From: a virus
Length of the DNA stretch: 35,097 bases
Virus record (IMG/VR): IMGVR_UViG_3300028378_000434
Coordinates: 1-35,097 of that record
Direction: 5' to 3' (one strand)
Positions 1-34,030 of the stretch are shown piece after piece; positions within the stretch are counted from its first letter, which is position 1, and every line of letters starts with the position of its first letter. The translations under genes and the position numbers were made by a program. The notes beneath the pieces were generated by a model. The model did not search any database, had not been told where the DNA came from, and was given only the letters and a program-made list of their open reading frames with translations.

Positions 1-1155
1 TTATTTTGTATCCATTTTGTATCCATGAGTTCCAAATTTATTATTTTTAAGCTTTTTTACAGCATCTTTCTGCATTGAAGGAACTACATGTGAATATATT
101 TTTAAAGTGATGGTAACATCATGATGGCCCAGTCTTTCCTGGACAACTTTTGGATTTTCTCCTAATTGAAGCAACCAGCTGGCGTGAGTATGTCTGAGAT
201 CATGAAACCTCGTTTTGGGTTTGTCCATCTTCTTAACTTTTCTCTTAAATTTTTTAGTTACTAGATCCGGCCTAATTTTCCGACCATCTTCATGTAAAAA
301 TACAACTTCTTCTTTATTATAAAATTTAAATTGTTTTTTTAGGAATCTTTTTAATAAAGCTGCTACATCTTCATCAAAATCAACGGTCCGTTTACTGTTT
401 TCGTTTTTAGGGTCCTTATAAACTAATCCTTCACCCCTAATTTCATTGACCGATCTCCTCACGAATAATCTCTTATTGTCTAAATCAATATCCTTCCATC
501 TCAAAGCTAATAATTCTCCCCGCCTGAGGCCTGTGTATAAAGCCAAATATATAATAGTATAAAAGGCAAATTCATCCTTGAATTTATCAAGTAATTGATT
601 TGCTTCCTGTTGCGAAAGCGGATGGATTTCTGGTTGCTTGGGAGAAGGAGCATTTACTCCCTGACAGGGGTTTTTATCTATTAGCCGATAAGGGTAGACT
701 GCATGTTTTAATGCTTGTGATAAAACTCTATGATGGTATTGAACAGATCTATTAGACAAGCCACCATCACCATCTAAACGGCCATTATTAAGTTTGTCAT
801 TTTGATATTTTATTATATGTCTTTCTTCTAAGTTTTTTAATTTTAATTTTCCTAATGATGGAATTAAATGGTTGTCTATTATAGTCTTATAATCTATAAA
901 GGTTCTTTTAGAGACATCGTTTTTCTTATATTCATAAAGCCATTTTTTAAGATATTCTTCTACTGTTATATTTTCTGCTTCATGAATATTACCTTTTTCA
1001 TATTTTTGAACTAACTCCAACATTTTCTTTTGTGCTTCTTTTTTTGTTCCTTTAAAGGTTTTGAACTTACGTCTTCGTTTACCTGTTTTGGGATCTTTTC
1101 CTAATTCAATAGAAATCCTCCAGGTTTTTGGACCTCTGTGATATAGAGAAGCCAT
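1..1155 (-). CDS. int: Phage tyrosine integrase
   Basis: A 384-residue site-specific recombinase that would integrate and, with a helper, excise the prophage. The N-terminal 60 residues are a basic arm-binding domain (RGPKTWRISIELGKDPKTGK), followed by a SAM-like core-binding domain (about 64-165) and the catalytic domain (about 175-370). Catalytic residues are visible: R211 in TGLRRGEL, H318-x-x-R321 in HDLRHTHAS, H344 in the GHH motif, and nucleophile Y354 in IYSHV. The length is normal for phages of Gram-positive bacteria. The ATG start is preceded by AAGGGGGAATATTTT, a good binding site. The stop codon is the first codon of the window, so the gene points outward and attL probably lies just beyond base 1. 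It is separated from the leftward repressor operon by a terminator-like palindrome. Confidence 0.97.
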   Translation of the reverse strand: MASLYHRGPKTWRISIELGKDPKTGKRRRKFKTFKGTKKEAQKKMLELVQKYEKGNIHEAENITVEEYLKKWLYEYKKNDVSKRTFIDYKTIIDNHLIPSLGKLKLKNLEERHIIKYQNDKLNNGRLDGDGGLSNRSVQYHHRVLSQALKHAVYPYRLIDKNPCQGVNAPSPKQPEIHPLSQQEANQLLDKFKDEFAFYTIIYLALYTGLRRGELLALRWKDIDLDNKRLFVRRSVNEIRGEGLVYKDPKNENSKRTVDFDEDVAALLKRFLKKQFKFYNKEEVVFLHEDGRKIRPDLVTKKFKRKVKKMDKPKTRFHDLRHTHASWLLQLGENPKVVQERLGHHDVTITLKIYSHVVPSMQKDAVKKLKNNKFGTHGYKMDTK

Positions 1156-2737: not shown

Positions 2738-2810
2738 TAAAAGAATATCATATATTTTTTATCCTTATAACCAAAAAATGTAACTAAAAGAAAACAAAGG
2801 AGGTGATTTA

Positions 2811-3332
2811 GTGAAAAATATTGGTTTTTTATTAAAAAAAGAAAGAAAAAGAAGAGGAATGACACAACAACAGTTAGCAGATTTAATACCAGGGTTAACA
2901 AGGTCCTCAATATCTAAATATGAATCAGGAGCAAATGTTCCTGAACATAATATGGAAAAAATAATAGAAATTCTTAAAAGTCCACGGCTTAAATTAGCTG
3001 TAAAAGGAACTGTAGTAAATAATTTATTGCTAGACAAAGTTGACCTGAGTCCACTAGCTACTCAACAAAAGATGCTGGAAGAGTTAAAAGAAACTCTTAA
3101 TTCCCTAAAAACTTTAAATTTGATAAATAAGTTAAATTCCAGAGATCTTGATGAAAAAGAGAGAAAATTATTATTTAATGATGTATTAATTCAAATTTGT
3201 GATTTAGATATTTGCAGTAGTTTGTTTATGACTTCAATGGCAGAAAACTTTGATATTGACATTAATGAATTAGAGAAACGTGAAATAAATAAAATGAAAA
3301 GGAAAGGATATATTTCAAGGGGGTTATACTAA
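2811..3332 (+). CDS. XRE-family regulator, early operon
   Basis: A 173-residue protein. Residues 4-60 are an XRE helix-turn-helix (LLKKERKRRGMTQQQLADLI, then SSISKYESGANVPEHN). The remaining two thirds is helical with a coiled-coil-like stretch (about 84-115) and no known enzymatic motif. The start is GTG at 2811 behind AAAGGAGGTGATTTA, a very strong site. It follows the excisionase-like gene in the rightward early transcript and is followed by two tiny genes. It may be a second regulator of the early or late switch; its target is unknown. Confidence 0.75.
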   Translation: MKNIGFLLKKERKRRGMTQQQLADLIPGLTRSSISKYESGANVPEHNMEKIIEILKSPRLKLAVKGTVVNNLLLDKVDLSPLATQQKMLEELKETLNSLKTLNLINKLNSRDLDEKERKLLFNDVLIQICDLDICSSLFMTSMAENFDIDINELEKREINKMKRKGYISRGLY

Positions 3333-3343
3333 TCAGTTACGAT

Positions 3344-3481
3344 ATGAAGAAAAAGACATTTTGTCATGACTGTGAGATGGAAATTAAGGATTGTAGAAAA
3401 AACCCAATAGAGTGCATGAGAAAAAAAGATTCTGATTTATATTTTGAAATGTATGACAAAGGATTAGGGTGGGTTAAATAA
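3344..3481 (+). CDS. Small cysteine-rich ORF
   Basis: A 45-codon ORF whose product has a CHDC pair near residues 7-10 and further cysteines at residues 17 and 24, a pattern compatible with a small zinc-binding knuckle. Its stop codon overlaps the next ORF by one base (TAATG), which supports translation of both. The weak point is the lack of a good ribosome binding site near the ATG: GGGGG lies about 20 bases upstream. It may therefore be read by coupling from the XRE gene ending 11 bases earlier. Function unknown. Confidence 0.5.
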   Translation: MKKKTFCHDCEMEIKDCRKNPIECMRKKDSDLYFEMYDKGLGWVK

Positions 3482-3633
3482 TGATATATATGAATATCGC
3501 AGCATGGACAACAATATGTTTAGGGTATATTTTCATAGGATATGTAGTTTGGAGTGAAGCAAAAGATATAATTGCTGAGACTTGGAAAGACATACTAAAA
3601 AGAAAAAACTCAGCTGATGAGACAGCTGAGTAG
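3481..3633 (+). CDS. Small single-pass membrane protein
   Basis: A 50-residue ORF with one hydrophobic segment at about residues 4-23 (ends CLGYIFIGYVVW). It is followed by a charged, lysine- and glutamate-rich cytoplasmic-type tail. The ATG overlaps the stop of the preceding ORF by one base, so it is probably translationally coupled. Tiny membrane proteins are common in phage early regions (superinfection exclusion, host inhibition), but no specific role can be read from it. The 3' end forms a CTCAGCTG/CAGCTGAG hairpin (3609-3630) without a T-run, so it is unlikely to be a terminator. Confidence 0.5.
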   Translation: MIYMNIAAWTTICLGYIFIGYVVWSEAKDIIAETWKDILKRKNSADETAE

Positions 3634-3682
3634 TTAAAATAAAATTTAACCATTTAAAATTATAACATCTGGAGGTAGTAAA

Positions 3683-4636
3683 ATGCAAGCCAAAAAATTA
3701 CTTAATACTAAAAATCTTACAATTAATGAATGGCTAGAAAAAAGAAATGACTTAGGAATAGGAGGAAGTGATGTATCTGCAATAGTAGGAATTAATCCTT
3801 TTAAGTCGGCTGTTGAAGTTTGGTTAGACAAAACTGGAGATGAAATTGAAAAAGAAGATAATAGTGCAATGTATTGGGGGAGAGAACTAGAAGATAAAGT
3901 TGCTGATGAATTTGCCAAAAGAAGAAGTGAAGAATTAAATAAAGAAGTAAAGGTCTGGCATGAAAATCACATATTACAGCATCCAGAATATGAATTCATG
4001 ATTGCTGATATAGACAGAAGGATTGTAGGGGAAGATGCTTTATTAGAATGTAAAACTACAGTAGATTTCAATAATTTTTGGGATGATGAGAGTTTTCCTG
4101 ATATGTATATGCTACAAGTACAGCATTATCTTGCAGTAACAGGATATCAAAAGGCTTATCTAGCGGTCCTAATATTAAATAAAAGGAAGTTTAAGTATTA
4201 TACTATCGAAAGAGATGAAGAGTTGATTGATCTTATCATAGAAAATGAAAAAGATTTTTGGTATAACCACGTAAAAGAAAATGTGCCTCCAGAAATAGAT
4301 GGATCTAAGGCTTCTAGTGCATTATTAAAAAAGATGTACCCTGAAGCTGAAGATGATAAAAAGATCAATCTTAAAAAAGATGCTGTAAATTTAATTGATA
4401 AACGTAATGAGTACTACGAAATAGAAAAGAAATATAAAAAGAAACGTAAAGAATGTGAAAATAAATTAAAAAACAAACTACAGGATGCTGAACTAGGAGT
4501 TTACCAGGGAGAAGAGATAGTAAAATGGAAAAATATATCTAGTAAAAGAATGAAAACAAAAAAATTCAGGAAAGATCATCCAGAATTATATGATCAATAT
4601 TCATACCAATCAAACTATAGGAGGTTATATGTATGA
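3683..4636 (+). CDS. YqaJ-family phage exonuclease
   Basis: A 317-residue nuclease of the YqaJ/lambda exonuclease class. It would resect double-stranded DNA ends to give single strands for the RecT protein encoded next door. Visible motifs: GIGGSDVSAIVG (residues 25-36), WGRELE ending in E70, IADIDR with D109/D111, LLECKT with E122 and K124 (the D-ExK metal site), and QVQHYLAV (145-152). The C-terminal 100 residues are lysine-rich and helical. ATG start behind TGGAGGTAGTAAA. The stop overlaps a tiny ORF (ATGA), and recT follows within 100 bases, so this is one recombination operon. Confidence 0.92.
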   Translation: MQAKKLLNTKNLTINEWLEKRNDLGIGGSDVSAIVGINPFKSAVEVWLDKTGDEIEKEDNSAMYWGRELEDKVADEFAKRRSEELNKEVKVWHENHILQHPEYEFMIADIDRRIVGEDALLECKTTVDFNNFWDDESFPDMYMLQVQHYLAVTGYQKAYLAVLILNKRKFKYYTIERDEELIDLIIENEKDFWYNHVKENVPPEIDGSKASSALLKKMYPEAEDDKKINLKKDAVNLIDKRNEYYEIEKKYKKKRKECENKLKNKLQDAELGVYQGEEIVKWKNISSKRMKTKKFRKDHPELYDQYSYQSNYRRLYV

Positions 4637-5593: not shown

Positions 5594-6442
5594 GTGAGCA
5601 ATGGAAGGTATATTAAAGTTGTAACAAAAATATGGACAGATGAGAAAGTCAGAAAGCTTAGTGATCAGGGACAGAAACTATTTATTTACATATTGACTTC
5701 ACCTCACAGCAATATGGCAGGTTACTATAGACTTCCTAAACCCTATATTCACTATGATCTTAAATGGTCAGCAGAACAGTTAGTAAAACCGTTTTCTAAA
5801 CTGTTAGACATATCATTAATTAAATACTGTGAAGAAAGTTCTGTTGTATTAATACCTAAATTTTTCAAATATAATCCAATTCAAAATAAAAATCAAGCCA
5901 AGGGTGCAGCTAAAAAAACATCTGAATTACCTAAAAACTGTCTAGTTACCAGCTATAAGAAGATCTGCAAAAGCTTTTCAGAACGGTATTATGAACTGTT
6001 AACCAAAGGGTTACCAGAACCCTCACCCAACACAGAAACAGTAACAGAAACAGAAACAGAAAAAGAATATGATGATGCAAAGAATTTTAAAATTAATAAT
6101 AAAAATAAAGAACTTGATAAGGTTATTAATAAATATAAATGTTATTTTCATCATGATATTAAACATAAGCACCTGAAGATATTAAACTCTTATTTAAATA
6201 AAGGTATTAGCTTTAAGGTTATTGCAGAAGCAATTAAGAGATCTGAAGGAAAAGAAATTCCCTTTAAATACTGCTTAAAGATTTTACATAAGTGGGAAAG
6301 TAAGGATGTTTTTACTTTAGAAGATGTTGAAATACTAGACCAAGCTTATGAAACAAAGAAAAACATGACTAATAGTGCTAAACATATAAGAAATGAACTA
6401 AATAAACCTGTTAAAGAATTACTAAATCAAGGATATAAATAA
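5594..6442 (+). CDS. Phage replisome organiser-like protein
   Basis: A 282-residue protein. The first 100 residues (KIWTDEKVRKLSDQGQKLF ... NMAGYYRLP ... LLIPKFFKYNPIQ-like pattern) are the winged-helix N-terminal domain shared by phage replisome organisers and DnaD/DnaB-like initiation proteins. These bind the phage origin and load host helicase. A low-complexity Thr/Glu linker (about 150-160) joins a C-terminal helical domain (about 175-280) that may contact the helicase loader. The start is GTG at 5594 with GGGAGGTGTAG upstream. No helicase loader of DnaC type follows, so host proteins would be used. The family call is from pattern; the exact role is inferred. Confidence 0.7.
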   Translation: MSNGRYIKVVTKIWTDEKVRKLSDQGQKLFIYILTSPHSNMAGYYRLPKPYIHYDLKWSAEQLVKPFSKLLDISLIKYCEESSVVLIPKFFKYNPIQNKNQAKGAAKKTSELPKNCLVTSYKKICKSFSERYYELLTKGLPEPSPNTETVTETETEKEYDDAKNFKINNKNKELDKVINKYKCYFHHDIKHKHLKILNSYLNKGISFKVIAEAIKRSEGKEIPFKYCLKILHKWESKDVFTLEDVEILDQAYETKKNMTNSAKHIRNELNKPVKELLNQGYK

Positions 6443-24351: not shown

Positions 24352-25353
24352 TTATATAGTGATATCTCGAGCATAATTATATGAAATTAGTTGATTATGA
24401 ATTGTTTCTTGGTAAGCCCTTTCAGAATGAGTTTTGTCAATAATATCAGAAGCAGTTGTGTCTTTAAAATGATTTGTTATTGATTTCATAGTTTCAAGTT
24501 CTTCTTCTGAAAATAATGAACTGTTGAATGATTTTTTATTTTCTATTATTTCCCCTTCATAATATTCTATCATTTCTTCAAGTTTAATTACCCCATAATC
24601 TTCAATTAAAATATCTAACAAAGCATAAATGTGTTTTGGTACAGGTCCAAGTTGCCAATGAACAAATGGTGTACCTGCAATTGAAATATTATTATTTTTA
24701 AAATTAAGAAACTCAGAATAGAATATTAATTTAATAAGTTTAGTTTTCCATAACTTTTCAATATTTTGAGAAAAATAAAGAACCATGTTACAAAATTTGT
24801 CAATATCAAAATCTCTATTACCTTTAAATTCATCCTCTATATTTTGTAACTTTCTAACATAAATATTATCTGTAATTGATTTTTTCATTAAAAGGTCTTT
24901 TGCTTTTTCTTTTACATTTTTATATAATTCATCCGATATATTATTCTTGTTTTTTTGTAGAAAATCAAGCATATTATCAGGTTGTTTAATAAACGATAAC
25001 ATTTGATCATGAGCTTTACCTTGTAAAGCACCATTTTCATATCTATGAATAGTAACTTGTCCCCAACTTAGTAATCTAGAAAATGCACGTTGACTTAAAT
25101 CATATTTATTACGAATTTCTGTAATTTCTTTTGGCAACAACATATTGTATTTTTTTCGATAGAGGTTATATGCTTTTTCCAATGAATTATCAAAATCAGC
25201 GTCTTTGATAATTTCTTCCCCGCAATTATTACAAATATATTTTGTCGTTTTAATCTCAAAAATATCTCCTCTAATATCATGATCTATAACTTCTTGTTTT
25301 TTTTCAAAACTATTATCATTAAAACATTTAGTGCAAAAAATTTCTTTATTCAA
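24352..25353 (-). CDS. MqsA-HTH-Panacea antitoxin
   Basis: A 333-residue antitoxin with three parts. Residues 5-50 are an MqsA/HigA-type zinc finger (C7-x2-C10 and C41-N-N-C44). Residues about 74-125 are a helix-turn-helix (LSQRAFSRLLSWGQVTIHRY). Residues about 185-300 are a Panacea (DUF4065) domain, recognised by KLIKLIFYSEFLNFKNN and VHWQLGPVPKHIYALL. Panacea domains are known to neutralise many unrelated toxins. The gene lies 22 bases downstream of a small toxin-like gene and shares its promoter, which carries a 22-bp palindrome that this HTH may bind. Confidence 0.85.
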   Translation of the reverse strand: MNKEIFCTKCFNDNSFEKKQEVIDHDIRGDIFEIKTTKYICNNCGEEIIKDADFDNSLEKAYNLYRKKYNMLLPKEITEIRNKYDLSQRAFSRLLSWGQVTIHRYENGALQGKAHDQMLSFIKQPDNMLDFLQKNKNNISDELYKNVKEKAKDLLMKKSITDNIYVRKLQNIEDEFKGNRDFDIDKFCNMVLYFSQNIEKLWKTKLIKLIFYSEFLNFKNNNISIAGTPFVHWQLGPVPKHIYALLDILIEDYGVIKLEEMIEYYEGEIIENKKSFNSSLFSEEELETMKSITNHFKDTTASDIIDKTHSERAYQETIHNQLISYNYARDITI

Positions 25354-25873: not shown

Positions 25874-26641
25874 TTAATCAAAAGATAACTGGTATAACAC
25901 TACTTCGAAATCAACAGCTCTAGCTGCTTTGATAAGTTGTTCATCTATATTAAAAGATAATATGATCCCTCTAACTTTTTGAGTTGGTTTAGCAAAGTGT
26001 TCTCTAACATCATTAATATAACGAGCAAGTTGACCAATAACTCGATTTGCACTTCCTTTTTTTAGTTCAACTACTACTATATCACCTTTTTCATCTTTAC
26101 AAAGAAGATCAATTATATTATTCGGAGAAAATGATACTTGACGATTGATAATATCAAGACCTTTTGATTTTAAAGTATTTTTGGAATCTAATAAGTTTTC
26201 TATATCTTCTTCATTAATATTGATTTTCAATCTATTTTTATAATTCAATTTAAGATTTTGGGTAAAATTTCTTATTCCAATCAATTCATAGAAATCTTTT
26301 TCGGTAATATCTGTTGAGGCACTTCTACTTAGTTGTTCAGTATATTTTTGAGGTAACAAATTTTGATTAACAACAAAATCCCATTCATTTACTTTTTCTA
26401 AGGGGTACCAAATGTCATCGTTCTCATCTTTCCGTTTAGAATCAGCAATTTTAAAATCGCCAATAAAATCTTGTGCACCAAAAACTTTAAGAATACATTT
26501 ATCCCCCTTTTGAAATTCATCTTCTCTCACTGAAGGATAAAATTTTCTAGATCTTAAAAAATTATCAGCTGTCCATTTAGAATCCCAACCTGACGTGTCA
26601 TAATCTCTAGAATGTTTTGAACTTACTATCCAATAGCTCAT
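25874..26641 (-). CDS. PUA/EVE-like plus NucS-type nuclease
   Basis: A 255-residue two-domain protein. Residues 1-110 begin MSYWIVSSKHSRDYDTSGW and contain KGDKCILKVFG, the pattern of EVE/PUA-like domains that read modified bases. Residues about 140-255 are a NucS-like PD-(D/E)xK nuclease with D178 (NNIIDLLC), E192-L-K194 (VVVELKKG) and the QLARY motif at 204-208. The active-site residues are complete. This predicts a modification-dependent DNA endonuclease used against phages with altered bases; that is inference from the domains. ATG start behind a TAGGGAGGAATAATATG-type site. It is a single gene in its own transcription unit. Confidence 0.75.
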   Translation of the reverse strand: MSYWIVSSKHSRDYDTSGWDSKWTADNFLRSRKFYPSVREDEFQKGDKCILKVFGAQDFIGDFKIADSKRKDENDDIWYPLEKVNEWDFVVNQNLLPQKYTEQLSRSASTDITEKDFYELIGIRNFTQNLKLNYKNRLKININEEDIENLLDSKNTLKSKGLDIINRQVSFSPNNIIDLLCKDEKGDIVVVELKKGSANRVIGQLARYINDVREHFAKPTQKVRGIILSFNIDEQLIKAARAVDFEVVLYQLSFD

Positions 26642-27176: not shown

Positions 27177-27211
27177 AATATACAAATAGAAATAAATTAG
27201 GAGTGATAATA

Positions 27212-27454
27212 GTGGAAAGTACAGGAATAGTAAGACAAATTGATGAACTAGGAAAGATAGTAATACCGAAGGAACTAAGGGAAAAAATGGAACTTAGACA
27301 AAAGGATTCAATTAAGTTTTATGTTGAAAAAGGAAGATTAGTTTTAGAAAAATATGAAGATGGCTGTTTTTTCTGTGGTGATTTGGAACAAACTTTTGAG
27401 TTTGCAGGAGTTACTATATGCAAGAATTGTTCAGATAAGATGAATGAAAAATAG
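27212..27454 (+). CDS. AbrB-type regulator with zinc finger, copy 1
   Basis: An 80-residue DNA-binding protein. Residues 1-48 are the AbrB/SpoVT swapped-hairpin domain (ESTGIVRQIDELGKIVIPKE, LRE, then KFYVEKGRLVLEKYE). Residues about 50-75 are a small zinc site, CFFCGD ... ICKNCSD. Start choice: a frame opens at 27203, but GTG 27212 has TAGGAG eight bases upstream and gives the usual xxSTGIVR beginning. It is followed by its own terminator at 27478 and then a paralogue. It may regulate nearby accessory genes or itself. Confidence 0.85.
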   Translation: MESTGIVRQIDELGKIVIPKELREKMELRQKDSIKFYVEKGRLVLEKYEDGCFFCGDLEQTFEFAGVTICKNCSDKMNEK

Positions 27455-27633: not shown

Positions 27634-27668
27634 AATAAATAAATAGAAATACAATAAGGGTGGTTATA

Positions 27669-27935
27669 ATGAAAAGCACAGGTATTGTTAGAAAAATTGA
27701 TGATCTTGGAAGAATTGTTATTCCAAAAGAGTTGAGAGAAACCATGAATTATAAGAAAGGAAGTCCTGTTGAAATATTTGTTGAAGAAGGCAAAATATTT
27801 TTAGAAAAATATGAACCAGGATGTATTTTTTGTGGAGAGATGGATGATATTTATGAGTTTGAGGGAGTTATGATGTGCAAAGGTTGTTTGAAAAAGATAT
27901 ATGATAATGAATTAAAAGGAGAAAATGAATGGTAG
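27669..27935 (+). CDS. AbrB-type regulator with zinc finger, copy 2
   Basis: An 88-residue paralogue of the previous gene: KSTGIVRKIDDLGRIVIPKE, then VEIFVEEGKIFLEKYEPG and a CIFCGE ... MCKGCLKK zinc site. Start: ATG 27669 with AAGGG eight bases upstream; the frame runs back to GTG 27660 but that lies at the binding site. The two copies have clearly diverged in the middle (MELRQKDSIK against MNYKKGSPVE), so the duplication is not recent. Their shared promoter type suggests a shared control, possibly mutual. Confidence 0.87.
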   Translation: MKSTGIVRKIDDLGRIVIPKELRETMNYKKGSPVEIFVEEGKIFLEKYEPGCIFCGEMDDIYEFEGVMMCKGCLKKIYDNELKGENEW

Positions 27936-28215
27936 GTTATAGAATTGTAAATTTATGTGTGTGTATGGAATAATGATGAATAAAAGGTTTATTTTGGTTG
28001 AAATAATTATTTTTATTCAAAAGACTTATGTATTAAGATGGTAAATAACATTGAGTAATTAAAAAGTTGTAAATTTAATATTGAACTTAAATTAATCATT
28101 ATATAAAATCAAATTTTTAATGGAAATATTTAGAAATATTTTGTTAAAAACCTTGTTATGACAACTCTTGTGTGGTATAATAATTTCAATAAAAATGAAA
28201 ATTGAAGTGAATTAA
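27936..28215 (+). other. AT-rich gap after AbrB genes
   Basis: No supported ORF in these 280 bases. The last 60 bases carry a promoter (28153-28181) for the broken small gene that follows. Confidence 0.6.
28153..28181 (+). promoter_or_regulatory. Promoter of broken small gene
   Basis: TTGTTA (28153-28158), 17-base spacer, TATAAT (28176-28181); four of six and six of six matches. A live-looking promoter in front of an ORF with an early stop. Confidence 0.6.
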
Positions 28216-28434
28216 ATGACAAATAATTTTGAAGCTGATGACACATATAAATAAAAAAGTTATTTTGAATCTGGTTATAATTTTCTAGATGGTGAATATA
28301 AAAATAAAGAAATTTCTGATGGTTTTTCAATTAATCCACATAAAGAAAACATTGAATTAAGATCACCAAAAGAGCAATGGTTAGAAGGTTTTGAAGATGA
28401 TGTAAGAGAGTATCATAAGACATATAATAATTAA
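28216..28434 (+). pseudogene. Small acidic gene broken by in-frame TAA
   Basis: A 72-codon frame with TAA at codon 13. MTNNFEADDTYK precedes it and KSYFESGYNFLDGEYK ... NIELRSPKEQWLEGFEDDVR follows in the same frame. It ends at TAA 28432. The downstream part is clearly protein-like (acidic, aromatic-rich). Only a weak GAAGTG site precedes the ATG. In a shifted frame just after, LDFPEKNHFEWITEEVMEE (ending at about 28515) looks like another coding remnant. Together they suggest a decaying accessory gene or genes upstream of the restriction operon. Family not recognised. Confidence 0.5.
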
Positions 28435-28597
28435 GTGGTATTGTTTGGATTTTCCAGAGAAAAATCATTTTGAGTGGATAACTGAAGAGGTTATGGAAGA
28501 GTCATTTAAAAAGTAAATTCTATAGAGCTTTATTATTTTTAAGTAATTATTGTTAGTGTTAATTATAGAATAAGAAAAGTGAACTGGATTATTAAAA
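28435..28597 (+). other. Degraded region before restriction operon
   Basis: AT-rich sequence with a short coding-like remnant up to about 28515 and nothing recognisable after it. Confidence 0.45.
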
Positions 28598-28641
28598 GTT
28601 AAAAGTTTTTTATTGATATAAGGTTAAAAGTTTCATATAAT
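28598..28641 (+). promoter_or_regulatory. Restriction operon promoter with direct repeats
   Basis: TTGATA (28613-28618), a 17-base spacer and TATAAT (28636-28641) form a strong promoter about 100 bases before the methyltransferase. GTTAAAAGTTT occurs twice, 25 bases apart (28598-28608, 28623-28633), the second copy within the spacer. This suggests an operator for a controller or the methyltransferase itself. Confidence 0.65.
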
Positions 28642-28745
28642 GGTTTTTAAGTAATTTGAGATTAAAAATTACTATTTTTAAATAAATATATAATTTAGAA
28701 TATAATGCAATATTAATTAAAAACAACATAATTTGAGGGGATATA

Positions 28746-30614
28746 ATGAGATATTTAGGAAATAAGACTAAATTATTAGATTTTATAGGAAAAGTAATAA
28801 AGAATCATGATATCGAAGGAGAAACATTTGCTGATTTATTTGCTGGAACTGGTGCCGTAGGAGACTATTTTAAGGATGATTATAAAATCATAGCAAATGA
28901 TTATATGTATTATTCAAAAATATTAAATGAAGCTAAATTATTAAACAATAGTATACCAACATTTAAAAAATTCAAAGAGAAGTATGACGTTGGTCCATTT
29001 GAGTGGTTAAACGCAAAAAAATATAAGGCTCAAGATAATTATTTTATTTATCAAAACTATACTCCGGTTGGCAATCGAAAGTATTTAACTGAAGAGAATG
29101 CTATTAAGATCGATGGGATTCGTTTAGATATTGAAGATTTTTTTGAAGAAGAAATTATTGATTATAATGAATATGTTTTTTTATTAGCTTCTTTGATTGA
29201 AAGTGTTCCTAGTGTTTCAAATACATCAGGTACTTATCAAGCTTTTTTTAAATTTTGGGAATCACGTTCTTTAAAAGAATTTATTTTAGAACCATTAGAA
29301 ATGAAAAAAGTTAAAAATATAGATGAAAATAATAAAATATTTAATGAAAATACTAATAAGCTTGTTAGAGAAATATCTGGGGATATTGCTTATATTGATC
29401 CTCCTTATACTACTACTCAATATACGGTTGCATATCATTTGTTGGAAACAATAGCAAGATATGATTATCCTGAAATTTTTGGAAAAACTGGAAGACGTGT
29501 AAAACGTGAATTCTCTAATTACTCTAATAAATCTAAAGCAATAAAAGAATTTGAAGATTTATTTAGACAAATTAATTTTGATCATGTGTTTTTAAGTTAC
29601 AGTAATCAATCTATTATACCTTTAGAAGAAATGGTTGAATTAGTTAAATTATTTGCAAAAAATGATGAGGTATATGTAGAAAAAAATAATTATCGTGAAT
29701 ATTCAACTAATAATTCTAGTCAAAAAGGGAATGGGAAAAAATTAAAAGAAGCTATAATTTATTTCAAAAAGGATAATGAAATTAATAAATCTCCTCTTAA
29801 TTATTCTGGTAGTAAGGATGATATTCTTCCGGAGATATTTAAGCAGCTTCCTAAACATGTAGGAACTTTCGTTGATGCAATGGGAGGAGCTTTTAATGTT
29901 GGGGCAAATGTTTTTGCCAAAAATAAAGTTATTTACAATGAATATAATCCATATATATATGAAATTGTTAACATGATTATTACTAAAGGAAAAGAAGAAT
30001 TAATTAAAGAGGTTGAGGGAGTAGTAGAAAAATTCAATTTGGAAAAAGAGGCAAAAGAAGAATATATATCTTTAAGAAATTACTACAATAATAAAGATAA
30101 GTCAGCTTTGAATCTTTTTACTTTGCAAATATATGCTTTCCAAAATATGATAAGGTTTAATAATTCCCAAGAAATGAATACACCTGTAGGAAATAATGAA
30201 TTTAGTGATGGTATTATGGAGCGTATTATAAAATTTAAAATTAAGTCACCAAAGTTTGAGTTACGAAAAGGCAAATATCAAGAATTGAATATAGATGAAT
30301 TACCTGATGATACAGTTTTTTATTTCGATCCTCCATATTTTGTTACTAAAGCTGAGTACAATGATGGGAAAAGAGGATTTGATGGATGGGGAGCTAATCA
30401 AGAATCTGAATTACTTAAATTTTTATCATCTGTTCATAATAAAGAATATAAATTTATGTTGTCAAATGTGCTTCATCATAGAGGTAAAAAAAATAATTTG
30501 TTAATTGAGTGGCTTGAATCTAATGAGTTTAATGTTATAAATGTAGGAACAACTGGAATAAAATATCCAAGAAAAGAAGTTTTGATTACAAATTACAAAT
30601 TGTTTAAAAAATAA
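28746..30614 (+). CDS. Two-domain M.FokI-like adenine methyltransferase
   Basis: A 622-residue fusion of two D12-class (Dam-like) N6-adenine methyltransferases. Domain 1 (1-345): MRYLGNKTKLLDFIGKVI, SAM-binding FADLFAGTGAVG (28-39), catalytic DPPY (218-221). Domain 2 (346-622): LNYSGSKDDILPEIFKQLPK, SAM-binding FVDAMGGAFNVG (375-386), catalytic DPPY (528-531). Both active sites are complete. In M.FokI and LlaI-type enzymes each domain methylates one strand of an asymmetric site, so self-protection of a type IIS-like sequence is expected; which sequence cannot be read. GAGGGG lies eight bases before the ATG. Three restriction genes follow after a structured gap. Confidence 0.9.
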   Translation: MRYLGNKTKLLDFIGKVIKNHDIEGETFADLFAGTGAVGDYFKDDYKIIANDYMYYSKILNEAKLLNNSIPTFKKFKEKYDVGPFEWLNAKKYKAQDNYFIYQNYTPVGNRKYLTEENAIKIDGIRLDIEDFFEEEIIDYNEYVFLLASLIESVPSVSNTSGTYQAFFKFWESRSLKEFILEPLEMKKVKNIDENNKIFNENTNKLVREISGDIAYIDPPYTTTQYTVAYHLLETIARYDYPEIFGKTGRRVKREFSNYSNKSKAIKEFEDLFRQINFDHVFLSYSNQSIIPLEEMVELVKLFAKNDEVYVEKNNYREYSTNNSSQKGNGKKLKEAIIYFKKDNEINKSPLNYSGSKDDILPEIFKQLPKHVGTFVDAMGGAFNVGANVFAKNKVIYNEYNPYIYEIVNMIITKGKEELIKEVEGVVEKFNLEKEAKEEYISLRNYYNNKDKSALNLFTLQIYAFQNMIRFNNSQEMNTPVGNNEFSDGIMERIIKFKIKSPKFELRKGKYQELNIDELPDDTVFYFDPPYFVTKAEYNDGKRGFDGWGANQESELLKFLSSVHNKEYKFMLSNVLHHRGKKNNLLIEWLESNEFNVINVGTTGIKYPRKEVLITNYKLFKK

Positions 30615-30643
30615 TTTAGTAAGTTTTTTATTTCGTAAGAATT

Positions 30644-30730
30644 AAAATAATATTGAAAATTTGAGCGACTATATTTCATATGTGGAAAAGAAGTTGCTAC
30701 TTTTATAAATTTTCAATATTATTTTTTTAT
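30644..30730 (+). terminator. Large stem-loop between methylase and restriction genes
   Basis: AAAATAATATTGAAAATTT (30644-30662) is repeated exactly in inverted form at 30707-30725: 19 perfect pairs. T's run on after the second arm. Inside the 44-base loop AGCGAC can pair with GTTGCT. It sits between modification and restriction genes, so it may cap the methylase transcript or attenuate read-through into the nuclease genes. Confidence 0.7.
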
Positions 30731-30798
30731 ATTTAATTCACATATTTATAAATAATTAATAGTAAAATGTTCTTTTATAACACTTTATTGGAAATAAT

Positions 30799-30828
30799 TT
30801 CACTTTTATGATAAATTATATATATAAT
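30799..30828 (+). promoter_or_regulatory. Candidate promoter of restriction genes
   Basis: TTCACT (30799-30804), 18-base spacer, TATAAT (30823-30828), 24 bases before the next start codon. It would let the nuclease genes be expressed separately from the methylase. The surroundings are very AT-rich, so false matches are possible. Confidence 0.5.
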
Positions 30829-30851
30829 TTGTTATGGAGGTGTGAAATAAT

Positions 30852-31769
30852 ATGGGAAAAATTTTACTATTAGATAAACGTGGATTTCCTGAAAAATTTG
30901 AAAAAATTGATTGTGATCCAGATGGAGGTTTAACTAAAAAAGAATATATTGAGAAAGAAATCATAAATTCAATAAACACATATAATTACAAAATGGATAT
31001 AACTAAAATTGAATATAAAAACATAAATGATTCTTTTTCAAGAGTTTCTACTGGTAAATTTATGGGATTAATTGTAGAAAATAATAAAAAAGAAAAAAAT
31101 GATGATATATGGAATGGAAGAAAAATTGTATCTTATGTTTTCATGTCACCTACTTCTAATCAAGGGCGTAATACATTTTGTTCTCAAAAAATATTTCCTG
31201 AGATTATTGACTTGATGTCATTCTATCTCTCTTCTCCAACATTTAAACTTTTAAATCATCCTATTCAGTTTATTAACATCTCAGGTGAAAAATTATCTTC
31301 TAATAAAATATTGATACAGTTCGCTTATTTAGTATTAATGGGAATTGAATATATTGAGGTCTTTAATGAATCATTTAACCCTAAAGATGTTCCTCCAGAT
31401 ATTAAAAAATTTTTTGAAACTTATGAACCTCAATTTGAGGAAAAAGAAGGATCTATTTTTTCATCTGATTATTATAATATTGATTTTTCATCGAAAAAAT
31501 TAAAAATCAAGACTGATAAATTAGAAGTTGGTGATCATTTAGAAAAACATGGTGATAAATTTTCATTTAAAGGAAGTTATGAAAAATTTTATTGGATTGT
31601 AATTCTTCCAACTATTATATTAGCATATGAAAATGGTTATGATATAGATTATTCTAATTTGAAAGATTTTTATGATTCATATAGAGATAAATTTGGTGGT
31701 AGTGAAAAAATAGAACGCTTTAATGTACTACTTAGTTATATAAAAAAATTACTTTCTAAGGCAAGGTGA
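30852..31769 (+). CDS. LlaI.1-like restriction operon protein, function unknown
   Basis: A 305-residue soluble protein that I cannot assign to a domain. It starts MGKILLLDKRGFPEKFEKI and contains KFMGLIVENN, a serine-rich MSPTSNQGRNTF turn and a helical C-terminus (about 230-305). No nuclease, ATPase or methylase motif is visible. The position (after a M.FokI-like methylase, four bases before a McrB-like gene) matches the first of the three genes needed for restriction in the lactococcal LlaI operon. It may give sequence specificity or assembly, but this is context inference. Strong ATGGAGGTG site. Confidence 0.65.
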   Translation: MGKILLLDKRGFPEKFEKIDCDPDGGLTKKEYIEKEIINSINTYNYKMDITKIEYKNINDSFSRVSTGKFMGLIVENNKKEKNDDIWNGRKIVSYVFMSPTSNQGRNTFCSQKIFPEIIDLMSFYLSSPTFKLLNHPIQFINISGEKLSSNKILIQFAYLVLMGIEYIEVFNESFNPKDVPPDIKKFFETYEPQFEEKEGSIFSSDYYNIDFSSKKLKIKTDKLEVGDHLEKHGDKFSFKGSYEKFYWIVILPTIILAYENGYDIDYSNLKDFYDSYRDKFGGSEKIERFNVLLSYIKKLLSKAR

Positions 31770-31773
31770 AAAA

Positions 31774-32769
31774 ATGTATCAATATAAACAGATTATTTAC
31801 TTTGGTGCACCAGGCACAGGAAAAAGTTATAATGTAAAAGAAAGACTAAAAGATGTCAGAAATGATAAAATTTTTCGTGTAACGATTCATCCTGAGTATA
31901 CATATTCTGATTTTGTTGGTCAACTATTACCCGAAGAAAATCCTACAACTAAAACAGTAGAGTTTTCATTTAAAAAGGGACCATTTACTAGAGCTTTGGT
32001 TGAAGCCCATGAAAATTATGCTGAAAATGTTTATCTGATATTGGAAGAACTATCTAGAGGAAATGTTGCTGCTATTTTCGGAGATATATTTCAATTGCTA
32101 GATAGAAATGAAAATTTCGAAAGTGAATATCCAATTCGTAATAAAGATATAGCTGATCAAATTGACGTGTTACCTACTAATGAAATTACTTTACCATCAA
32201 ATTTTAATATTATTGGGACAGTAAATACAAGTGATCAAAGTGTATATCCTATGGATACAGCTTTTAAAAGACGTTTTGAATGGAAATATGTAACAAGCCG
32301 ACCTGTAAAAGATGAAGATGGTAATTTTCTAAAAAAATTGAATAACCCCAAAGTAATAGTATTAACTAACAAAAATAAGATTGAAACAACTTGGCATTCA
32401 TTTTATTCAGCATTAAACTTATTTATAACTGATAATGAAAATGGTTTAGGAAAGAGTGAAGATAAACAAATAGGACAGTTTTTTGTAGATTTTGGTAAAG
32501 TTCTTACTGAAAATTCTCATTCTACTAATACTTCAAAAGCAGATAAAGCTAAAAGAAACATTACTAAAAAAATCAAAAACAAATTGTTACTCTATTTATG
32601 GCAAGATGTTCAAGGAAATTCTTCGTTTAATATTTCATCAAAACTTTTTTCAAGAGAAATTAAAAGTTTTGATGATTTATATTCAAAGTATGGTTATGAC
32701 AAAGTTTTTAGTGATATATTTATAGAAGATTTTTTAGAACCCCATACTGATGAATATCCTTATGATTGA
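31774..32769 (+). CDS. McrB-like AAA+ GTPase subunit
   Basis: A 331-residue AAA+ motor of the McrB family. It should use GTP to drive DNA translocation for the nuclease subunit. Motifs: Walker A GAPGTGKS (11-18), the HPEYTYSDFVG block (39-49), Walker B VYLILEEL (86-93), the McrB signature GTVNTSDQS (148-156) and the FKRRFEW arginine-finger region (164-170). It has no N-terminal DNA-binding domain of the kind found in E. coli McrB: the protein starts ten residues before Walker A. Specificity must therefore come from another subunit, perhaps the preceding gene. The intergenic gap is four bases. Confidence 0.9.
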   Translation: MYQYKQIIYFGAPGTGKSYNVKERLKDVRNDKIFRVTIHPEYTYSDFVGQLLPEENPTTKTVEFSFKKGPFTRALVEAHENYAENVYLILEELSRGNVAAIFGDIFQLLDRNENFESEYPIRNKDIADQIDVLPTNEITLPSNFNIIGTVNTSDQSVYPMDTAFKRRFEWKYVTSRPVKDEDGNFLKKLNNPKVIVLTNKNKIETTWHSFYSALNLFITDNENGLGKSEDKQIGQFFVDFGKVLTENSHSTNTSKADKAKRNITKKIKNKLLLYLWQDVQGNSSFNISSKLFSREIKSFDDLYSKYGYDKVFSDIFIEDFLEPHTDEYPYD

Positions 32770-32782
32770 AAGTGGTGTTTAA

Positions 32783-34030
32783 ATGATACTTAATTATGCT
32801 AGAGATGGACAAGAATTTAATAAAAATAATCTTATTGATAATGGATTTAATATTGATGAAAGAGATTTTCAAATAAACCAAAAGGGAATAAGCGAACAAG
32901 GAATGGAAACAGAAGGTCATGAATATGTCCTAAATTTTGTAGGTTTTTTGACAAATCATAAAGGAGACATTTTTTCAGTGTTTCCTAAAAATTATAAAGT
33001 AGAAAATCTTAAGAAAGATTCTATTAAATTATTTAAAGTAATTGCAAAACATATGCAAAGAAGACCAGAAATATATTTAGGAAATTATTATGGTGATAAA
33101 TTTAAATCAAACTACCCTTTCGCTGCCTTTTTTGGTATATATGAATATTATTCTAAATATGGGCTATACTTTGAGGAGAATATTCACATTAAACCTAATA
33201 GTGGGAAAAAAGTAAATTGGAAAGCAACAATTCGTCTTTCAGATAAATATATTTTCGATAACAATTTAGTATTTCTTCCTATTTATTATGAAAAAAAGTA
33301 TTACTTCAAAGAATTTTTAACTAAATGTATGATTTTTGCTATCGATTATACTATTGATAAATTTAATATGTTTATCGATTTAAATAAAACAGGACAAGCA
33401 TTTCCGGATTTTAATTTTTTTAATGAAAAAGAAGTTATATTAAATAAACTCATTTCCTTACGTCAACAGACTTTCAAAGATAATTTGATAGAATTAATTG
33501 ACCACTTAATAAATTTTTTTAAAAAATTGAATGAAGGTGGAGATTATTATTTAAAGCATTATTCATTTCGTTTCATTTGGGAAGATATGGTGATGAACTA
33601 TTTAAAAACATATTATAAAGAAGTAAAAGATAATAAAATTGTTTTTGATAAAAAAAATTCTAGTAGTAGTATAGATTTTACAAAAAAATCTTTTTACCCA
33701 AATCTTGCTAATAAAAAAGATTATTTTACTCCAGATCATTATTATTGTGAAAAAAAGAATCAGTTAATATTTGATGCAAAATATTACACTAGTATTCAAG
33801 GCATGAATTATAAACAAATTGCATACCATTTATTTTTAAATGAATATAGAGAAGATATTGATGATGAACCTAAATTTTCAAACACATATTCTGCTCTTAT
33901 TCTTCCAGCAGAAAAACGTAAAAGCAAGATTCATTTCAAAATGGATCCAAAATTTAATAAATCCAATAGTGATATAGAAATTTCAGAAGAATATATTGAT
34001 ATTCGTGAAGTTATAAATGCATATTTATAA
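32783..34030 (+). CDS. McrC/LlaJI-like restriction nuclease subunit
   Basis: A 415-residue partner of the McrB-like motor. The N-terminal half (about 1-200) is the likely AAA+-contacting region. The C-terminal PD-(D/E)xK nuclease domain shows IWEDMVM (E267), TPDHYYC (P317-D318) and IFDAKYYTS (D331, K333), followed by the YKQIAYHLFL helix. This arrangement resembles LlaJI-family and McrC nucleases. The catalytic residues look complete. It starts 14 bases after the McrB-like gene with AAAGTGGTG upstream. It ends the operon; no clear terminator follows. Confidence 0.82.
   Translation: MILNYARDGQEFNKNNLIDNGFNIDERDFQINQKGISEQGMETEGHEYVLNFVGFLTNHKGDIFSVFPKNYKVENLKKDSIKLFKVIAKHMQRRPEIYLGNYYGDKFKSNYPFAAFFGIYEYYSKYGLYFEENIHIKPNSGKKVNWKATIRLSDKYIFDNNLVFLPIYYEKKYYFKEFLTKCMIFAIDYTIDKFNMFIDLNKTGQAFPDFNFFNEKEVILNKLISLRQQTFKDNLIELIDHLINFFKKLNEGGDYYLKHYSFRFIWEDMVMNYLKTYYKEVKDNKIVFDKKNSSSSIDFTKKSFYPNLANKKDYFTPDHYYCEKKNQLIFDAKYYTSIQGMNYKQIAYHLFLNEYREDIDDEPKFSNTYSALILPAEKRKSKIHFKMDPKFNKSNSDIEISEEYIDIREVINAYL

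Follow-up and report, generated by a model that had tools for sequence, protein, structure and literature searches.

The motor protein of the LlaJI system, R1, has a unique N-terminal half and binds the LlaJI site specifically, and the second subunit, R2, holds the nuclease centre (PMC1459862). Other members of the motor family carry B3, YTH or DUF3578 domains at the N-terminus (PMC7680126, PMC12707154). In LlaI, the motor subunit LlaIB has only 337 amino acids (PMC1459862), and the literature apparently offers no settled account of how unmodified DNA is recognised when, as in LlaI-type systems, the motor has no recognition domain. The original prediction for the locus described here held that such systems are few and poorly understood, which is fair, although a three-gene restriction cassette with a short McrB-like protein has been described since 2006. 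The reading that we favour, at a probability of about 0.7, is that the locus is a complete, phage-borne LlaI-type restriction-modification system, in which the LlaI.1 protein would supply target recognition to the motor in trans.

Results

The cassette and its host element

The window, by which we mean the whole stretch of DNA that was analysed, has 35,097 nt (IMGVR_UViG_3300028378_000434, positions 1 to 35,097), and the cassette studied lies at 28746-34030. The window is a contig of a temperate siphophage or prophage; besides an integrase, genes for a CI-like repressor, RecE/RecT, terminase, portal, capsid, tail, endolysin and holin are found up to 22.4 kb, after which, beyond the structural and lysis genes, an accessory region starts. 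Megablast with the phage structural region found no relative. G+C content is 23-28% in the four cassette genes and 34% in the head genes, and the low value in the cassette is consistent with its acquisition as cargo. Four genes had been proposed for this interval, and ORFs of 622, 305, 331 and 415 aa are present exactly where they had been placed, all intact and all on the plus strand. The features considered here are:

1-1155, minus strand: integrase
28746-30614, plus strand: bidomain N6-adenine methyltransferase, LlaIM homologue, 622 aa (D12/Dam domains, 64% identity to LlaIM of Enterococcus genome L008, DPPY motifs)
30644-30725, plus strand: AU-rich hairpin with U tract between the methylase and the restriction genes (folding energy compared with shuffles)
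30852-31769, plus strand: LlaI.1 homologue, 305 aa, proposed target-recognition subunit (tblastn, structure model)
30852-31364, plus strand: LlaI.1 N-terminal domain, about residues 1-171 (weak PD-(D/E)xK-like structural matches)
31365-31769, plus strand: LlaI.1 C-terminal domain, about residues 172-305 (model)
31774-32769, plus strand: McrB-like AAA+ motor without N-terminal domain, LlaI.2 homologue, 331 aa (homology, motifs, McrB structures)
32783-34030, plus strand: McrC/LlaJI-type PD-(D/E)xK nuclease, LlaI.3 homologue, 415 aa (43% identity to LlaI.3 of L003, motif)

Several other genes of the accessory region were noted. At 25874-26641 (minus strand), a 255-aa protein has a C-terminal NucS PD-(D/E)xK domain (Pfam 7.6e-13) and, judged by eye, an EVE-like N-terminal half; lying near a restriction-modification cassette, it is possibly a modification-dependent nuclease. 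At 24352-25353 (minus strand), an MqsA-type HTH and zinc-finger region is fused to a SocA/Panacea antitoxin domain. Two small AbrB/MazE-like proteins, each with a CxxC..CxxC tail, are encoded on the plus strand at 27203-27454 and 27660-27935, between the phage genes and the cassette and 0.8-1.5 kb upstream of the methylase, and are possible regulators. Between them and the methylase, at 28200-28500 (plus strand), broken but coding-like frames are possibly the remains of a decayed gene.

The methylase and its spacing from the restriction genes

The prediction of a two-domain methylase was borne out, in that the 622-aa protein contains two MethyltransfD12/Dam domains of the N6-adenine class (Pfam 1.7e-68 in two stretches; TIGR00571 5.5e-38), each with a DPPY motif (at 218 and 528), and matches PADLOC MTase_II over its full length (2.4e-236). 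It aligns end to end with the intact LlaIM of the Enterococcus genome, also of 622 aa, at 64% identity, and a tree places it in the same clade as the LlaI methylases. Close homologues of the methylase are not normally found alone: relatives of at least 49% identity with known context carry LlaI genes, and the sole exception is a phage with only the N-terminal half of the methylase. More distant relatives, at about 38% identity or less, were paired, in those opened, with MAG4270-type, HNH or FokI-type endonucleases or with another gene set. The exceptional phage, Lactococcus phage C41431 (L044), encodes at 2783-4092 an XRE regulator and the methylase half, which is annotated as LlaI methylase and is 65% identical to the window methylase; the half gene was likely acquired for anti-restriction.

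The restriction genes are closely packed, with gaps of 4 and 13 bp. In the window, the methylase and the LlaI.1 gene are separated by 237 bp containing the hairpin, in contrast to a spacing of at most 113 bp in the other complete cassettes. The predicted folding energy of the hairpin (30644-30725) is -27 kcal/mol, compared with a shuffle mean of -17.1 (z -3.33); a G+C-based terminator scan of the window did not list it. This element is a possible terminator or attenuator, and may allow the methylase to be produced without the restriction genes. Accordingly, the proposal that all four genes form one operon is doubtful, because the strong hairpin and 237 bp set the methylase apart from the three packed restriction genes.

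LlaI has an upstream HTH regulator gene, llaIC. The Enterococcus genome has an HTH-like ORF in the corresponding position (5882-6118). Directly upstream of the window methylase an llaIC-like HTH gene is absent, and the interval 28100-28745 contains no plus-strand ORF of at least 25 aa. We judge llaIC to be accessory rather than defining for LlaI systems.

Motor and nuclease

The 331-aa protein is, as had been proposed, a McrB-like AAA+ protein without an N-terminal recognition domain. It matches AAA_5 (5e-14), PRK11331 McrB (2e-12) and solved McrB GTPases (6ut3, E 6.6e-17; 6hz4, 6.6e-12), contains the motifs GAPGTGKS, LILEELSR, GTVNTSD and AFKRR, and is 58% identical, end to end, to LlaI.2 of the lactococcal plasmid pUCCL629C (L003). 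Its Walker A motif begins at residue 11, leaving no room for an N-terminal domain. That GTP drives the motor, as the original prediction took for granted, is an inference; R1.LlaJI itself showed no intrinsic GTPase activity (PMC1459862). The McrB-like motors closest to LlaI.2 (L028 and L029) are a sister lineage of it, with a different N-terminal domain fused to the motor and an m5C methylase adjoining.

The expected PD-(D/E)xK nuclease was likewise recognised in the 415-aa protein, which has an intact PD..FDAK motif (PDHYYCEKKNQLIFDAK, residues 317-333), matches a PHROG restriction endonuclease (3.9e-11) and is 43% identical, end to end, to LlaI.3 of pUCCL629C, annotated as a LlaJI family restriction endonuclease. 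The PD..DAK site of LlaI.3 is intact in all five complete copies.

Relatives and distribution of the cassette

The 305-aa protein proves homologous to LlaI.1, and the order of methylase, LlaI.1, McrB-like LlaI.2 and McrC-like LlaI.3 is collinear with LlaI, as the original prediction had it. The similarity of the 305-aa protein was detected both to a hypothetical-protein ORF of pUCCL629C (31.6%, tblastn E 2e-23) and to LlaI.1 of the Enterococcus genome (34% over residues 5-299, tblastn E 2e-46; about 36-37% in end-to-end alignment). In pUCCL629C the LlaI operon adjoins the abiA gene, and the methylase and LlaI.1 frames are broken in the record; the Enterococcus genome holds an intact cassette of 622, 334, 337 and 464 aa. 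Both encode a motor of 337 aa, the size given for LlaIB. The same gene order was seen in three more cassettes, in Lactobacillales genomes (L034, L035, L036), and in a partial cassette (L026) on a virus contig, with a shortened motor and no nuclease. Across six LlaI.1 cassettes, that incomplete one among them, the layout is a methylase (616-633 aa), LlaI.1 (296-334 aa), an AAA protein without N-terminal extension and a nuclease (409-464 aa). One genome (G421) has three cassette copies, one intact (L034) and two (L037, L038) in which stops and frameshifts mark decay.

Among genomes sampled from the order to which the Enterococcus genome belongs, 4 of 295 have a cassette, counting that genome as the seed; in a sample of 398 from its phylum, only the seed does. 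Because LlaI.1 profile searches of 399 Bacilli and of 201 genomes of one family returned only genomes already known, the LlaI.1 family is rare. Single-protein scans of viral contigs with the 305-aa, motor and methylase proteins gave no match, nor did a LlaI.1 search of phage records.

Since broken LlaI copies are common (pUCCL629C, L037, L038) and a lactococcal phage keeps only half of a LlaI methylase, the window cassette might itself be a decayed or silent phage relic, with the methylase alone retained for anti-restriction. We regard this as very improbable, because all four frames and all catalytic motifs in the window are intact.

Predicted structure of LlaI.1

The original prediction could read no domain in the first restriction gene, and LlaI.1 indeed matches no family significantly in Pfam, NCBIfam, PADLOC or PHROGs; run against PDB sequences, the LlaI.1 profile yielded chance matches only. 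Structure prediction of the 305-residue protein alone gave a model with pLDDT 81.3 and pTM 0.81, which is confident considering that the alignment held six sequences. Residues 1-173 resemble EME1, ERCC1, FANCM, XPF and BstEII, with VIA Z scores of 5-6.4, all below Z 8, and a best Foldseek E of 0.035. The fold assignment is weak, because a common arrangement can give scores at this level; the argument for it is the consistency of the top structural matches, nearly all of which are PD-(D/E)xK-like. The C-terminal domain was modelled as beta strands and helices (pLDDT 83.9, pTM 0.77) with an invariant GS motif, and matched nothing in the PDB with E below 1; the best BFVD match, to a Megaviridae protein, had E 4.7e-3 and TM 0.40.

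The likeness of the modelled N-terminal domain to XPF/Mus81-family and restriction-endonuclease folds raises the idea that LlaI.1 is a second catalytic PD-(D/E)xK subunit, paired with the nuclease in a heterodimer such as XPF-ERCC1 or Mus81-Eme1 but with the active site in LlaI.1. This is highly unlikely in our estimation. The predicted core strands of seven aligned members contain no conserved catalytic acid and (D/E)xK set, EME1 and ERCC1, both inactive partners, are among the best structural matches, and, as described above, the catalytic site of LlaI.3 is uniformly preserved. The polar residues conserved among the seven sequences are N42, R106-N107 and Q112. We prefer to view the N-terminal domain as a putative degenerate nuclease fold that would bind DNA, like those of ERCC1 and EME1.

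LlaI.1 and the motor N-terminal domain exclude each other in the sample

In a sample of motors gathered by motor sequence alone, six had a neighbouring LlaI.1 gene and 18 did not. All six motors with LlaI.1 nearby start directly at the AAA domain without an N-terminal domain, and all 18 without LlaI.1 carry 133-546 aa ahead of the motor. As the motors with a separate LlaI.1 form one clade (100/98), this mutual exclusion counts as one event.

A second arrangement was found on the Lactobacillus amylovorus plasmid p2_CACC736 (L039), where a 590-aa ORF comes after the methylase gene; it spans the record origin and is absent from the gene table. With the LlaI.1 profile, the first 308 aa of this ORF, ahead of the motor, reach 19.7 bits, compared with at most 0.1 bits for the 18 other N-terminal extensions and at most 11.9 in 5000 shuffles. 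Of the non-members in a set of 660 ORFs, this domain scores highest (E 1.1e-4), and it outscores 1000 shuffles with every leave-one-out profile; identity to LlaI.1 is about 18%, and single-sequence comparisons gave a phmmer E of 0.004 and an hhalign probability of 21%. On this sequence evidence, the plasmid apparently carries a remote LlaI.1-like domain fused to the motor N-terminus, the place where McrB and LlaJI have their DNA-recognition domains. L028 and L029, considered as further LlaI.1-motor fusions owing to their long N-terminal extensions, were rejected, as neither scored with the LlaI.1 profile.

The methylase of the amylovorus plasmid groups with the LlaI methylases (100/99), whereas grouping of its motor with the LlaI motors was rejected (AU p 0.0005), as was grouping of its nuclease with the LlaI nucleases (AU p 1e-81); motor and nuclease lie on long branches, and the evidence for the swap comes from one plasmid. 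Methylase and LlaI.1-like domain thus appear to be one co-travelling pair, and motor and nuclease another, a pairing that would be expected if LlaI.1 reads the methylase's site.

A different role for LlaI.1, as an assembly, bridging or regulatory factor, with the target recognised by the methylase or the nuclease, has to be weighed here. It is in keeping with the lack of a recognisable DNA-binding domain in the LlaI.1 sequence, with a C-terminal domain that matches no known fold, and with the ability of methylases to give specificity to restriction complexes in other restriction-modification types. Against such a role, LlaI.1 occurs exactly where the motors' N-terminal recognition domains are missing, a LlaI.1-like domain is apparently fused at the recognition-domain place in p2_CACC736, and in LlaJI the motor subunit R1 alone suffices for specific site binding (PMC1459862). 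We consider it unlikely, if a good deal less so than a catalytic LlaI.1. The suggestion in the original prediction that LlaI.1 may be the missing specificity subunit receives indirect support from the mutual exclusion, the one fusion and the motor swap.

Discussion

Target recognition by LlaI.1 leads to the following scheme, in which the cassette would be accessory cargo of a temperate siphophage. The bidomain methylase would place N6-methyladenine on both strands of one site, probably asymmetric, with one domain acting on each strand. The 331-aa AAA+ protein would act as the McrB-like motor, which the 415-aa nuclease would join as McrC joins McrB. LlaI.1, probably through its dead PD-(D/E)xK-like N-terminal domain and the small C-terminal domain lacking a known fold, would bind the unmethylated target and load the motor-nuclease assembly, by analogy with LlaJI (PMC1459862) and McrBC (PMC7680126). 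Unmethylated incoming DNA, such as that of other phages, would then be cut and the DNA of the lysogen spared.

A wider proposal, which we offer tentatively and rate at somewhat less than even, is that LlaI.1 represents a new class of exchangeable specificity modules, each a degenerate PD-(D/E)xK-like domain with a novel C-terminal domain, that read the methylase's site, occur free or fused to the motor, and have moved with the methylase between unrelated McrBC motors; they would be comparable to HsdS, which sets the specificity of type I systems. Should LlaI.1 be a free specificity subunit, McrBC-type motors could change target by swapping a small subunit together with the methylase. The fused relative and the incongruence of methylase and motor make the recognition question testable, with the natural chimaera as a guide.

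Compared with known systems, the window cassette resembles the FokI-type bidomain methylases, which accompany HNH, MAG4270 or FokI nucleases, in that two m6A methylase domains are fused, but those methylases are only 30-38% identical to that of the window and their single-gene endonucleases are unrelated. McrBC, a type IV system, has the AAA+ motor and PD-(D/E)xK nuclease in common with the window; it differs in cutting modified DNA, in having no methylase and in carrying a recognition domain at the McrB N-terminus, whereas in the window a methylase is present and the motor N-terminal domain absent. The methylases of BsuMI from Bacillus subtilis are m5C enzymes, unlike that of the window. BsuMI does resemble the window in that its restriction cassette has three genes and includes a short McrB-like protein (PMC1459862). 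LlaJI of pNP40 shares a McrB-like motor and a McrC-like nuclease that cut unmodified DNA, but has two m5C methylases, a motor to which the recognition domain is fused, and no LlaI.1, in contrast to the single bidomain m6A methylase and the motor of only 331 aa in the window.

The closest counterpart is LlaI, known from the Lactococcus plasmid pTR2030 and represented here by pUCCL629C and the Enterococcus genome, in which gene content, order and orientation are the same: a 622-aa bidomain methylase, a LlaI.1 homologue, a short McrB-like protein and a PD-(D/E)xK nuclease. The window differs from LlaI in a LlaI.1 that is only 36-37% identical, in the 237-bp gap with its hairpin after the methylase, in having no llaIC-like HTH gene directly upstream, and in its carrier, a temperate phage. 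It adds such a phage to the carriers of LlaI cassettes, which agrees with a report of prophage-associated LlaI in Listeria (PMC12006667); the cassette is new and phage-borne, and belongs to the LlaI kind, which was already known.
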